Position numbers and translations under genes: made by a program
IMG/VR virus record: IMGVR_UViG_3300039204_000031
Coordinates: 1-35,276 of that record
DNA from: a virus
DNA length: 35,276 nt
Direction: 5' to 3' (one strand)
The notes under the pieces: generated by a model
What the model was told of the DNA's origin: nothing
Databases searched by the model: none
What the model saw: only the letters and a program-made list of their open reading frames with translations
Part shown: in pieces, positions 8,669 to 23,883 of the stretch
How the letters are laid out: every line of letters starts with the position of its first letter
Numbering within the stretch: the stretch's first letter is position 1

Positions 8669-8811
8669 TATTGTCTCATTTTAATAAAAGCATCCCTAGT
8701 AAAAATCTTCTTATCCTCATCTAACGATTCATAGTAATCACTTATTTTATTTAACAGATAAGCCGTTTTATCTAACTCCTTGTTTACTTCTGTAATATCT
8801 ACATTATCCAT
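8668..8811 (-). CDS. Small protein directly after the portal gene (47 aa)
   Basis: Frame MDNVDITEVNKELDKTAYLL to FIKMRQ, likely helical. The ATG shares a base with the portal stop (TAATG) and the stop shares a base with the next ATG. No function can be assigned; as it sits between portal and protease it may be an assembly factor. Confidence 0.6.
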   Translation of the reverse strand: MDNVDITEVNKELDKTAYLLNKISDYYESLDEDKKIFTRDAFIKMRQ

Positions 8812-10043
8812 TATATATCAAATTTAATTCCTACGTTCCCCATAAATTGGATAGCCTGTTCCTCTGTTAAACCTGATTGTATTAAGTTTCTTACAGATGT
8901 TGTAATCTTTAGAGCTCTGTCCGCTTTTAAATCCTCTGTTATTTGCATTGTAGGTAAATGCTCAAAAGAAGCTTTAAATGGTCTGTCTTGGTTTCCAAAT
9001 GAATCCGTCCAACTGCTTGCAATATTGTTTGCTCTTGGCTGTATAACGTTTTGTATAAATCCTAACTCTGCTTGTTTTTGGTTCTCAAAAGTATCTCCTT
9101 TTGTAAACGCTTTGTATATCTCGTTAGGTACTTGAAACCTTTGAGCAACTATATTAGAGTTTGTCTCTCTACTTTCATTCAGTCCTAAATCACCTAACTT
9201 AACGCTCATATTCACCCATCCCATCTTTTTGCTTGGCGTCAACGTTCTACTACCTCCTGAACGCATTAAATACTTGCTGTTTAGAATCTTTTGTATGTTT
9301 TCTTTATCATCATTAGTCATTGGAACAGTGCCTCCAAGATTGTTTCCTTGTTGATCTACAAACATCATTTCTCTACCGTTGGTTTGTATTACTACATTCT
9401 CCGCGTCTGAAGCTAAAGATATATTTGATGCCTCTTTTATAATAGAATCCAATCTACTTGGAGAAGTAACCGCGCTTGTATCTGAATTATCCGTACTGTT
9501 AGACACGTCAAAGAATGGTATAATGTCATTAAACTTAATACTCCTGGTATCGTTTACATCTGAATAAGAAAATTCATTGTTGTAGTAATCCCTTTCGTCT
9601 TTCTTTGTTATAATTAAAGAGTTACCCATTTTATTAGGAAACTGTATTTGTGAGGAGTTTAGATTATATATATATTTTGGTGTGCCCTGTAATGCGTTCA
9701 TGTAAGGTCGTTGATATACCCACCCATAAGAACATAAGAACCATTCAAATTGAATTAAAAAATCTTCTGTAGATTGGTGAGGGTTTGGGTTCTTTATAAA
9801 GTCTAGTGAAGGGTCGTCAAAGTTTTTATCTCCGTTTTCATCATCTACATAAAACATGACCTTTGATAAATAATCTGCTCTAATAGATATTACCGAAGCT
9901 AAAGTAGAATTATCTAAAGATACTTGCAACTTGTCTTTTCCGTTTATGTAAGTAGTATTGTTTTTAGATACGCTGTACCAATTTGAGCCATTAGAATATC
10001 TAACATATCCCATACTTCTCATTAACCCACTGAAAACACCCAT
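8811..10043 (-). CDS. Portal protein (HK97-like)
   Basis: 410 aa. The dodecameric portal is the DNA entry channel of the head and the terminase docking site. Seen here: LASVISIRADYLSKVMFYV (about 48-66), the helix typical of the Phage_portal family, then DFLIQFEWFLCSYGWVYQRP, a central beta-rich region with a long wing, and a C-terminal part with VPNEIYKAFTKGDTFENQKQ (about 310-330), the motif surrounding the family's conserved stem/tunnel region. It is the first gene of the late block and has a predicted promoter and structured leader upstream. The ATG lies 4 bp after a hairpin with a T-run. Confidence 0.88.
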   Translation of the reverse strand: MGVFSGLMRSMGYVRYSNGSNWYSVSKNNTTYINGKDKLQVSLDNSTLASVISIRADYLSKVMFYVDDENGDKNFDDPSLDFIKNPNPHQSTEDFLIQFEWFLCSYGWVYQRPYMNALQGTPKYIYNLNSSQIQFPNKMGNSLIITKKDERDYYNNEFSYSDVNDTRSIKFNDIIPFFDVSNSTDNSDTSAVTSPSRLDSIIKEASNISLASDAENVVIQTNGREMMFVDQQGNNLGGTVPMTNDDKENIQKILNSKYLMRSGGSRTLTPSKKMGWVNMSVKLGDLGLNESRETNSNIVAQRFQVPNEIYKAFTKGDTFENQKQAELGFIQNVIQPRANNIASSWTDSFGNQDRPFKASFEHLPTMQITEDLKADRALKITTSVRNLIQSGLTEEQAIQFMGNVGIKFDI

Positions 10044-10047
10044 ATAA

Positions 10048-10081
10048 AAAGCCTCTATCTATTTTATAAGGTAAAGGCTTT
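10048..10081 (-). terminator. Terminator-like hairpin in the portal leader
   Basis: On the minus strand AAAGCCTTTA pairs with TAGAGGCTTT (10 bp, one G-U) around a 14-nt AT-rich loop, followed by TTTAT and, after a single base, the portal start codon. The stem plus T-run is a standard intrinsic terminator, but it lies between the predicted promoter at 10143-10175 and the portal gene, so it can only act as an attenuator or as the end of transcripts coming from upstream. Confidence 0.72.
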
Positions 10082-10139
10082 AAGTCAATTGTTCAGAAAG
10101 CCGATTACTCTTAATAAATTAATAATAAGAACAATCGAC
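10082..10139 (-). promoter_or_regulatory. Structured leader upstream of the portal gene, possible attenuator
   Basis: GTCGATTGTTC (10129-10139) pairs with GAACAATTGAC (10084-10094): 11 bp with one G-U. The enclosed loop holds GGCTTT (10097-10102 on the map), which can pair with AAAGCC (10076-10081), the 5' arm of the terminator hairpin. The segments GGCTTT, AAAGCC and GGCTTT therefore compete, as in an antiterminator/terminator switch. Read by eye only; no folding energy was computed. Confidence 0.5.
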
Positions 10140-10142
10140 CGT

Positions 10143-10175
10143 CAAATATAATGATTTTATTTATAACAAAACAAA
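10143..10175 (-). promoter_or_regulatory. Predicted Bacteroidetes-type promoter for the late operon
   Basis: On the minus strand TTTG (10172-10175), 21 bp, then TATATTTG (10143-10150), matching the Bacteroidetes housekeeping consensus TTTG-N19-21-TAnnTTTG. It stands in the 148-bp gap before the portal gene. Predicted RNA start near 10136-10139, giving a leader of about 95 nt. Confidence 0.62.
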
Positions 10176-10191
10176 TAAATATAGATTTTGT

Positions 10192-10593
10192 TTATTGTAG
10201 TGTTGTTTGTAACTCTTCTCCAGTTAAAGCAAAGTATAGGTTTTGTAGCTGGTGTAGATTAGTTAAGTCGTTTAAAATATAACTTAGCTTTAAGTTAGCT
10301 TCATCACACCAATATATAGACCATCCACTATTTATTCTCAAATAAGAACGAATTGAAAAATCACCTAAAGTAAATACATCAACCTCTTCAATATATTCAA
10401 ACCCAAACTTCAACAACCACTCTTCAGTTAGTGGGATTGGTTTTATTAACCCTAAAGGGACTTCATACAATGTTTCTCTTGATTTATCTGACAATAAATG
10501 ACACTGAACCCTATACTGGTCAATACCATCAATTATTTCAGTTCTTTGTTCATTGTTAACATAATTTCCTATTCTTAATTCTTTTGCTTTCAT
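10192..10593 (-). CDS. Conserved hypothetical phage protein (133 aa)
   Basis: Begins MKAKELRIGNYV and contains PIPLTEEWLLKFGFEY (about 51-67) and a C-terminal LHQLQNLYFALTGEEL (about 112-127). These three blocks are characteristic of a small family very common in flavobacterial phages and prophages, with no known function. It is the last gene before the late promoter and overlaps the upstream gene as ATGA. Confidence 0.7.
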   Translation of the reverse strand: MKAKELRIGNYVNNEQRTEIIDGIDQYRVQCHLLSDKSRETLYEVPLGLIKPIPLTEEWLLKFGFEYIEEVDVFTLGDFSIRSYLRINSGWSIYWCDEANLKLSYILNDLTNLHQLQNLYFALTGEELQTTLQ

Positions 10594-10976
10594 AATTTCA
10601 TAAATGTTAAATAAGATTCCACTTTTCTATAACTCATGTCTATTTCTGTTAGTATTCCAACTTCGGGATTGTAGTATAGGTCATTTTGTTTTATAATAAA
10701 ATGACCGTTTTTACCGTTCCAATTAGGGGAGCTTAATAGTATTATTGAGTTGTTAGGTATGTGCTCTAAGGTAATTTTTAATCCATATCTTGTAACTCTA
10801 CTAAGTTCAACGTTTTTCATAGTTGGTTCAAGATATGGCATCAAATCATTTTCTAAACTTGTTCCTGAAAAGTTATTTAACTCATCGCAAATAGCTCCTA
10901 GTGATTTTCCTGTTATCATTGCTAAACATGCCTGACCACATAGTTTTGTGTCATAGCCTTGTGATACGAATTTCAT
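10590..10976 (-). CDS. C39-like (papain-fold) cysteine peptidase domain protein
   Basis: 128 aa. The N-terminal motif YDTKLCGQACLAMITG (Cys13, Gln15, Cys17) and the later GKNGHFIIKQND (His at about residue 92, followed by an Asp) match the active-site blocks of C39-like peptidases, in which a Gln forms the oxyanion hole before the catalytic Cys and a His-Asp pair completes the site. No signal peptide is visible, so it should act in the cytoplasm. It is coupled to its neighbours (ATGA downstream, TAATATG upstream). It could process a phage or host protein, or trim a leader peptide; no substrate can be named. Confidence 0.6.
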   Translation of the reverse strand: MKFVSQGYDTKLCGQACLAMITGKSLGAICDELNNFSGTSLENDLMPYLEPTMKNVELSRVTRYGLKITLEHIPNNSIILLSSPNWNGKNGHFIIKQNDLYYNPEVGILTEIDMSYRKVESYLTFMKL

Positions 10977-22747: not shown

Positions 22748-23187
22748 TGAGAATGTTTAAGTATTACTTCGTTAACTTGTTCTATTATGTTATTAGATAC
22801 GTAATCTTCGTTGTAAGGCGTTATTTTTATTTTTTGGATGTCTTGTACCTCTTTTGCATTTAAAACGTCTCTATCAACCTTAATTTGATTAATAAGGGTA
22901 TAAAACTCACTTATACAATCGTCTAAACTTCTAAAAAGTATTTTATTTAGTTCTTTTTTCGGCTCTTGGTTGAAAACATCTGAATTGTAATGTATTAAAA
23001 ACTGACCGTAAACATGGATATATAATTTAGCAAACAACTCTTGATTTATTATTTGGCTAGATTGCTTTTCTTTAACGTAATCAACAATAGTATTATAAGC
23101 TTCAATATCATTCTCATTCGCCTTTAAACGACCTTGATTGATATTCCATCCAAATCTTTGTACTGCTTTTTCTATGCTGAATTTCAT
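22735..23187 (-). CDS. Hypothetical replication-module protein (150 aa)
   Basis: MKFSIEKAVQRFGWNINQGR to KHSQWKG, mainly helical. It is sandwiched, with overlaps on both sides, between the replication protein and the helicase. By position it may be a helicase loader or cofactor; no AAA+ motif is present, so this is inference only. Confidence 0.55.
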   Translation of the reverse strand: MKFSIEKAVQRFGWNINQGRLKANENDIEAYNTIVDYVKEKQSSQIINQELFAKLYIHVYGQFLIHYNSDVFNQEPKKELNKILFRSLDDCISEFYTLINQIKVDRDVLNAKEVQDIQKIKITPYNEDYVSNNIIEQVNEVILKHSQWKG

Positions 23188-23789
23188 TAAACGTATCTTA
23201 TTGGTTTTTGTTTAGGTATTACTTTTATTATTTCTTGTAAATTAAGCCAGTTCGTAAAATGTTCTTTAAATTCTTTTATGTTTTCCTTCTGTTCTCCTGT
23301 TTGTATTAACTTTCCTTCAAAAGTGTTTAAGTATTTTTTTATAGTATCTTGATTCGTTCTAGTTTGCATTGATTGAACTTCCATCCATTGAGCGTCTTTT
23401 AAGCAAGAATTTAAAAATGGTTTATTATTAATAATAGTTACTTCTTCTTCTTCTTTCTCTTCTACTTGTTGGGTAGGGGTTAAATTACCCCCATCGGTAG
23501 GGGGGGATGCAAGGGGTTTATCGGTTGGTTTTCCCTCTTTAATATAAGCCTCCCCATTCAGTCTTGTTTTTGTTTTATCTTCATAACCCTTAACTTGACT
23601 GTCTATACTGTTAACTTGACTTATCCATGCAAATTTAGCCATTCCTTTTAAGTCTTTGGGCTTCAACCCTAAGAACTGTCTATCTAAAAGAGCTTGTATA
23701 AAAGAAAGCTTATCCTCGTTGTTTAGTTCATTATAAACATCGTAATAGCTTCTAAAAAAGTTAAATCCCTTGCGTTTTGTTAATTTCAT
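23187..23789 (-). CDS. Putative replication initiation protein (DUF6291/DUF7833-like)
   Basis: 200 aa. The N-terminus GFNFFRSYYDVYNELNNEDK (about 8-27) matches the DUF6291-type start. A flexible Pro/Thr/Gln/Glu-rich linker follows (about 90-118). The C-terminus has KEFKEHFTNWLNLQE (about 171-185), like the wing-helix tails of phage replication proteins. The gene is first in the replication block and has repeats and a hairpin in its leader. The linker DNA is G-rich on the plus strand and could contain the origin, as in lambda O. Confidence 0.65.
   Translation of the reverse strand: MKLTKRKGFNFFRSYYDVYNELNNEDKLSFIQALLDRQFLGLKPKDLKGMAKFAWISQVNSIDSQVKGYEDKTKTRLNGEAYIKEGKPTDKPLASPPTDGGNLTPTQQVEEKEEEEVTIINNKPFLNSCLKDAQWMEVQSMQTRTNQDTIKKYLNTFEGKLIQTGEQKENIKEFKEHFTNWLNLQEIIKVIPKQKPIRYV
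23471..23516. repeat. G-rich tract with two GGTAGGGG repeats, origin candidate
   Basis: Plus strand: GGGTAGGGG, then CCCCC, GG TAGGGGGGG and GGGG within 46 bp, in a genome that is otherwise AT-rich. GGTAGGGG occurs twice, 24 bp apart (23472 and 23496). It lies in the linker-coding part of the replication gene. A G-quadruplex or an origin is possible; not tested. Confidence 0.4.
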
Positions 23790-23791
23790 GT

Positions 23792-23839
23792 TTCACGTTT
23801 TTATTCACGTTGTAAAAAAAGAATGTGCAGGAACGTGAA
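23792..23839. repeat. Three TTCACGTT repeats in front of the replication gene
   Basis: TTCACGTT occurs at 23792-23799 and 23804-23811 on the plus strand and inverted at 23832-23839. The first is 3 bp upstream of the replication gene start. Two direct copies are 12 bp apart; the third forms the near-palindrome GGAACGTGAACC. Such iterons suit an operator or initiator binding site. Confidence 0.5.
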
Positions 23840-23875
23840 CCTCTTTGAATTCAACCGCTAAGTTGAAACACATTC
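23814..23875 (-). terminator. Hairpin with T7 run in the replication leader
   Basis: Minus strand: GAATGTG (23869-23875) pairs with CACATTC (23821-23827), followed by seven T. The loop holds a second hairpin, TTCAAC-TTAGCG-GTTGAA (23850-23867). It terminates or attenuates transcripts arriving from the 24-26 kb genes. If the promoter-like box at 23876-23883 is real, most of the first arm would lie at or before the RNA start. Confidence 0.55.
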
Positions 23876-23883
23876 CAAATATA
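23876..23883 (-). promoter_or_regulatory. Promoter -7 box candidate before the replication gene
   Basis: TATATTTG on the minus strand fits TAnnTTTG. No TTTG is found at the expected 19-21 bp upstream distance (nearest is 12 bp), so this is weaker than the promoters at 10143, 19717 and 26344. Confidence 0.35.

Follow-up and report, generated by a model that had tools for sequence, protein, structure and literature searches.

Late antitermination in phage lambda is organized around a promoter and then a terminator (6S RNA) upstream of the late genes, and the put sites of HK022 are cis-acting antitermination RNAs, made of two fixed stem-loops, that act on distant terminators. Three phage systems couple a leader RNA to termination in ways that bear on the locus described here: in the pR'-tR'-Q system of lambda, late expression depends on read-through; in P4 immunity (CI RNA, seqA and seqC), a segment of the untranslated leader has two complementary partners in that same leader and transcription terminates prematurely; and a single promoter of the Gifsy-1 prophage yields both the short terminated RNA IsrK and a read-through mRNA, with alternative folds (PMC4825925).

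The window analyzed here, the whole of IMG/VR record IMGVR_UViG_3300039204_000031 (35,276 bases) and derived from a phage of flavobacteria-type hosts, carries its genes on the minus strand in the order terminase, two small ORFs, portal, a further ORF and major head protein, with 148 noncoding bases separating the ORF at 10192-10593 from the portal gene (Table 1). Like lambda pR'-tR'-Q, it has, judging from sequence and relatives, a promoter and then a predicted terminator before the first late gene; unlike lambda, the leader (99 nt from the TATATTTG box to the portal ATG) is strongly structured, its 5' end has two competing partners and the first ATG directly adjoins the terminator. Neither of the two ORFs directly upstream, the pair compared in this respect, matches a Q family (one belongs to phrog_10066, of unknown function, and the other has no match). 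With moderate confidence, we read this element as a 5' leader that attenuates transcription of the late (head) operon and requires regulated read-through; it probably serves as an inbuilt brake on virus-particle production, whose layout is kept in related viruses despite changes of letters. Elsewhere in the window, a perfect 12-bp inverted repeat (GGTCATTTTGTT/AATAAAATGACC) followed by GTTTTT lies at 10679-10706 on the plus strand, inside the ORF at 10590-10976.

Table 1. Features of the portal leader and of the second leader in the window
Feature	Position	Strand	Basis and remarks
Portal protein gene (phrog_12)	8811..10043	-	first gene 3' of the leader
-7 box TATATTTG (TAnnTTTG, sigma-A type)	10143..10150	-	sequence; consensus and spacing from PMC9723704; predicted +1 at ~10138
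Segment A GGTCGATTGTTCTTA	10126..10140	-	RNA 5' end; pairs with B and with C
Segment B TAAGAGTAATCGGCT	10099..10113	-	near partner of A; 15-bp hairpin in the minimum-energy fold
Segment C GAACAATTGACT	10083..10094	-	far partner of A, 12 bp; kept in L143, L145, L102 and JQ
GGCTTT	10097..10102	-	antiterminator arm according to the preliminary description; lies partly over the 3' end of B
Predicted intrinsic-terminator hairpin AAAGCCTTTA ... TAGAGGCTTT	10048..10081	-	T7 equivalents in L143, L145, L102, JQ, L010 and L158
Terminator T-run	10046..10050	-	sequence; ends 2 nt short of the portal ATG (10043)
Second -7 box TATATTTG	23876..23883	-	upstream of a replication-type gene
Second promoter-proximal leader: GAATGTGT ... 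GCACATTC hairpin, then T7	23814..23875	-	fold weaker, z = -1.56
DUF6291 + DUF7833 gene	23187..23789	-	Pfam; behind the second leader

The promoter-like box, already recognized in the preliminary description, agrees with the TAnnTTTG primary sigma box that a map of transcription starts in Flavobacterium psychrophilum places at -12 to -5 (PMC9723704); this spacing sets the predicted +1 at ~10138, where 10137 had been proposed. Because the median 5' UTR of F. psychrophilum is 24 nt (PMC9723704), a leader of 99 nt is unusually long. A generic sigma-70 and terminator scan gave no excess of sites; as it relies on the E. coli consensus and allows loops of no more than 8, it listed neither the TAnnTTTG box nor the portal terminator.

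The whole leader folds at -32.5 kcal/mol, compared with -18.05 +/- 2.5 in shuffles (z = -5.8; 0/200 shuffles). Its 5' segment A pairs either with B (10140-10126 with 10113-10099; 15 pairs, -14.8 kcal/mol), as in the minimum-energy fold, or with C (10140-10129 with 10094-10083; 12 pairs, -14.4 kcal/mol), the two helices being mutually exclusive. None of 3000 shuffles reached A:B, none A:C and none both jointly, figures which, like the other shuffle p-values, take leaders as random sequence and concern arms initially picked by eye. Further downstream, a terminator stem (10081-10072 with 10057-10048; 10 pairs, -10.8 kcal/mol) is followed by T5 and is overlapped by neither A:B nor A:C. The sequence thus bears out the promoter-terminator-gene order and the 10-bp terminator hairpin described earlier, with the T-run stopping 2 nt short of the portal ATG. 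The 11-bp hairpin reported alongside them is also real and corresponds to A:C, but the 15-bp A:B hairpin of the minimum-energy fold had been overlooked; likewise, competing pairings do exist and are conserved, but they set A:B against A:C and leave the terminator stem untouched. GGCTTT, which had been cast as an antiterminator pairing with the 5' arm of the terminator, was rejected for this role: its 6 bp with AAAGCC (10081-10076; -6.0 kcal/mol) are at chance level (p = 0.066) and are not conserved, with no counterpart in Tenacibaculum phage JQ or Nekkels_1 and a match of just 4 bp in L102 (p = 0.5). Moreover, the state that contains this pairing (-21.0 kcal/mol) lies ~10 kcal/mol above the best fold, the A:B and A:C states with the terminator being at -30.9 and -26.4 kcal/mol, respectively.

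An attenuator of the amino-acid type was likewise rejected, as the short ORF that would encode its leader peptide is not conserved: the window leader contains no ATG, and a 7-codon TTG frame common to it and L143 is absent from JQ, L145 and L102. An Rfam search assigned the window leader to no family (the best weak match, the trpB motif, has E = 0.11 and scores 24.1 bits where the cut-off is 59), and an exact search of IMG/VR with the terminator sequence returned no match.

Searching with the portal protein of the window alone yielded no relatives; these came from portal alignments, at identities of 68% and below. In most of those fetched, a TAnnTTTG box lies directly upstream of the portal ATG, a rule among relatives that supports the promoter call. 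Promoter position, A:C and an ATG-abutting terminator are shared by five portal leaders, two of which are close to each other: those of the window, L143 (portal 68% identical to that of the window), L145 (44%; box TATATTTA), JQ (43%; expected start 5 nt after TATTTTTG) and L102 (38%). Within this set, A:C exceeds chance in 5/5 leaders (p <= 0.002) and A:B in 4/5 (p <= 0.0045; p = 0.14 in L102). Around A and B, the window and L143 can be aligned base for base and differ by a triple compensatory change, in which GTC-GA-TTGTTC becomes GTC-AG-TTGTTC in A (GA to AG), AATCGGC becomes AACTGGC in B (TC to CT) and ATTGAC becomes TCTGAC in C (TT to CT); all three segments having changed to match, both helices are restored. 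JQ, a cultivated phage that infects Tenacibaculum geojense and for which the geometry was fixed from the window, has a 12-bp A:C with a separation of 46 nt in a 99-nt leader, in the same place and with the same spacing; the best ungapped identity of the two leaders is 40/99, and A:C was reached in 0/5000 shuffles. Covariation of the hairpin arms among relatives, which the preliminary description had put forward as a check, is therefore favorable: L143, L145, L102 and JQ all hold A:C and the terminator with differing letters. Read directly from these sequences, the element is a promoter-like box in a conserved position, two helices and a terminator, in a conserved layout that includes compensatory changes.

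Conservation of this kind bears on the reading of the leader as an ordinary operon boundary, whose hairpin would end transcripts arriving from the terminase side and whose box would be fortuitous or weak. The leader does sit between two gene blocks, and intergenic regions often hold both a terminator and a promoter; nevertheless, this explanation is very unlikely, as a terminator that lies 3' of its promoter and touches the ATG would stop the portal mRNA too, the position of the promoter before portal is kept in most relatives, and both A:B and A:C have been maintained through compensatory changes.

Outside the five leaders, the architecture varies. A minimal form, seen in L010 (50%) and L158 (34%), consists of the box, one hairpin from near +1, T7 and the ATG; L078 and L087 combine a small 5' hairpin with a 14-bp terminator; and Nekkels_1, with an unrelated portal type, has an 11-bp A:C, extra complements of A and two T-runs. 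Many other portal relatives (the lillamy type, L012-L014, L022-L039 and L146-L155) have the promoter without a terminator; therefore, the brake is not universal, and the device has been gained and lost. Matches to Cellulophaga phages in a blastn search of the region cover the upstream phrog_10066 ORF, and none falls on the leader. Two other RNA elements were observed before portal genes. In L151-L155, ~72 nt upstream of portal, there is a 7-bp long-range pairing (CGTCAAA:TTTGACG) without a terminator. In Lillamyvirus and relatives, a short GUGA-loop (GNRA-type) hairpin with a covarying stem, AAYGYYGUGARRCRUAGRU, directly precedes the portal ATG (L091 19369-19399, L031, L042-L049, L054 and L076), and its lillamy copy has no match in Rfam.

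The order of box, hairpin, T-run and ORF was counted in 1.04 Mb of fetched phage DNA, where TAnnTTTG gave 23 distinct matches against 1-9 for ten permuted words, an enrichment partly due to real promoters sitting in intergenic DNA. By a stricter count, the 79 noncoding TATATTTG sites near ORFs divide into 60 with no terminator, 11 with the conventional order of a terminator and then the promoter, which is thus also common, 7 with the promoter and then a terminator, and 1 with both; portal leaders make up 5/7 of the promoter-then-terminator sites. The layout is not unique to the window, as it also occurs upstream of portal or replication genes in other flavobacterial phages. The 15 nt upstream of portal starts are 47% T and 26% A; because other genes of the same phages are A-rich there (50-56% A), the T-run before the portal ATG is not ordinary start-site composition. 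The 27 portal starts in the fetched loci are T-rich and A-poor upstream also where the hairpin is absent, and some of this T-richness may serve another purpose, as hairpin-less starts share it.

U-rich tracts upstream of portal starts that lack a terminator hairpin would suit a post-transcriptional 5' untranslated element, in which the 5' helix protects the mRNA end, the hairpin and U-rich tail gate ribosome access, and no regulated termination takes place. The geometry is compatible with end protection, A starting within ~2 nt of the predicted +1 in the window, JQ, Nekkels_1 and L010, and the hairpin ends 4 nt from the ATG, within the expected footprint of a ribosome. We regard this alternative as unlikely: a stem with an immediate T7, as found in JQ, L102, L143, L145, L010 and L158, is the classic form of a terminator, a stabilizing hairpin has no need of a T-run, and the two mutually exclusive partners of A are left unexplained.

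These two partners are what relates the portal leader to P4, where control by CI RNA also involves a segment complementary to two others; unlike in P4, where the shared segment is flanked by its two targets, A is located 5' of both B and C, and while CI is processed and acts in trans on replication genes, the gene behind this leader is portal. The likeness to IsrK lies in the pairing of alternative folds with a predicted short terminated RNA and a read-through mRNA; unlike IsrK, which controls translation of orf45/anrP, the portal leader has no sequence or Rfam relation to it. The combination of a doubly complementary A, a terminator and read-through, which approximates the logic of CI/seqA/seqC and IsrK (PMC4825925), raises the prospect that the leader is a small-RNA gene, whose terminated ~95-nt product would act in trans like these RNAs, with A of one molecule pairing with B or C of another. 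This is distinctly improbable, considering that 12-15 bp of intramolecular pairing should beat pairing in trans, that no target was identified and that Rfam families of the Gifsy or P4 type are not matched.

A related architecture precedes replication genes. A pattern scan for TATATTTG, 72-98 nt and GGCTTTTTTTATG gave at least 120 matches; among those listed, 71/77 distinct leaders are 94-102 nt long (82-108 being permitted), and many sit upstream of DUF6291-like replication proteins. In these leaders, the loop of a 5' hairpin is complementary to the apical loop of the terminator, with at least 42 distinct best-stem sequence pairs. In an alignment of the 71 listed leaders, 88.5% of the A:C cells are paired, compared with 35-48% for slid partners, and double changes occur in 7/7 pairs; among listed leaders with less than 90% identity, all seven pairs are Watson-Crick in 27/42, against 2.5 with shuffled partners. 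Diversifying selection on the loops was rejected, the A and C loops being no more variable than the stems. The class (L223-L338, L091:13361, L096:33887(-), L342:322 and L343:586) is found in phages of Flavobacterium, Cellulophaga and Polaribacter, its topology being present in the cultivated phages lillamy, tooticki, elemoA, phi19:3 and P12002S, and 15 loci with replication leaders had no match in Rfam. Rfam matches of other kinds are a Pistol ribozyme (RF02679, 46.5 bits) in Cellulophaga phage phi19:3 (L005 441-508, minus strand) and a DUF805b RNA (RF02914) upstream of gp038 in Flavobacterium phage lillamy9-7 (L091 12044-12078, plus strand).

The portal leader resembles this loop-loop class in its TATATTTG box, a leader of 95-100 nt, a T-run abutting the ATG and a 5' segment that pairs ~50 nt downstream. 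It was rejected as a member because its C lies 5' of the terminator, whose loop contains no complement of A, unlike the loop-loop class, where the partner of A is in the apical loop. Consistent with this, the covariance model R1 gave no hit at E <= 1 anywhere in the window, although the model, being nested, is strict: it also fails to find L091 and L096, whose topology is the same by eye, and lillamy and P12002S are among the phages so missed. The window has a second leader of its own (Table 1), in front of a gene whose DUF6291 end resembles the N-termini of proteins behind loop-loop leaders in other phages; no loop-loop pairing was found in it (23883-23814). Two AACGTGAA repeats that lie past the T-run of this second leader, ahead of the ATG, are complementary to TTCACGTT within it. 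The loop-loop replication leaders are possibly more important than the original portal finding.

As an attenuator, the portal leader would work as follows. Host RNA polymerase with its primary sigma factor would start at ~10138, the first 12-15 nt (A) would pair back with B, and C could then take A over, before the nascent RNA arrives at the intrinsic terminator, with its T-run directly against the portal ATG. Most transcripts would, by default, stop as a ~95-nt RNA; read-through by the polymerase, which the state of phage or host would have to bring about, would allow the head genes to be made. The agent could be an antitermination factor encoded by the phage, or else the A/B/C fold acting on polymerase or terminator; as with HK022 put, structured nascent RNA just past a phage promoter could confer read-through on polymerase. 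Neither helix overlaps the terminator stem, and contact with a protein or with polymerase is no less plausible than a switch made of RNA alone. Termination, its regulation and its switch are what we infer from the sequence.

A wider and rather doubtful reading is that flavobacterial phages time their two main operons by a self-contained family of RNA switches, whose terminated RNA may also act in trans in an immunity-like manner. If so, each leader would be ~99 nt long, with a 5' end pairing to a segment ~50 nt further on, within or beside an ATG-touching terminator, the replication form being a loop-loop pseudoknot and the portal form toggling A between B and C. The timing of gene expression in Bacteroidota phages is almost unstudied, and these leaders raise the question of how flavobacterial viruses read through terminators. 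A conserved leader of the head operon and a covarying replication leader in cultivated phages would offer testable RNA-based timing devices.
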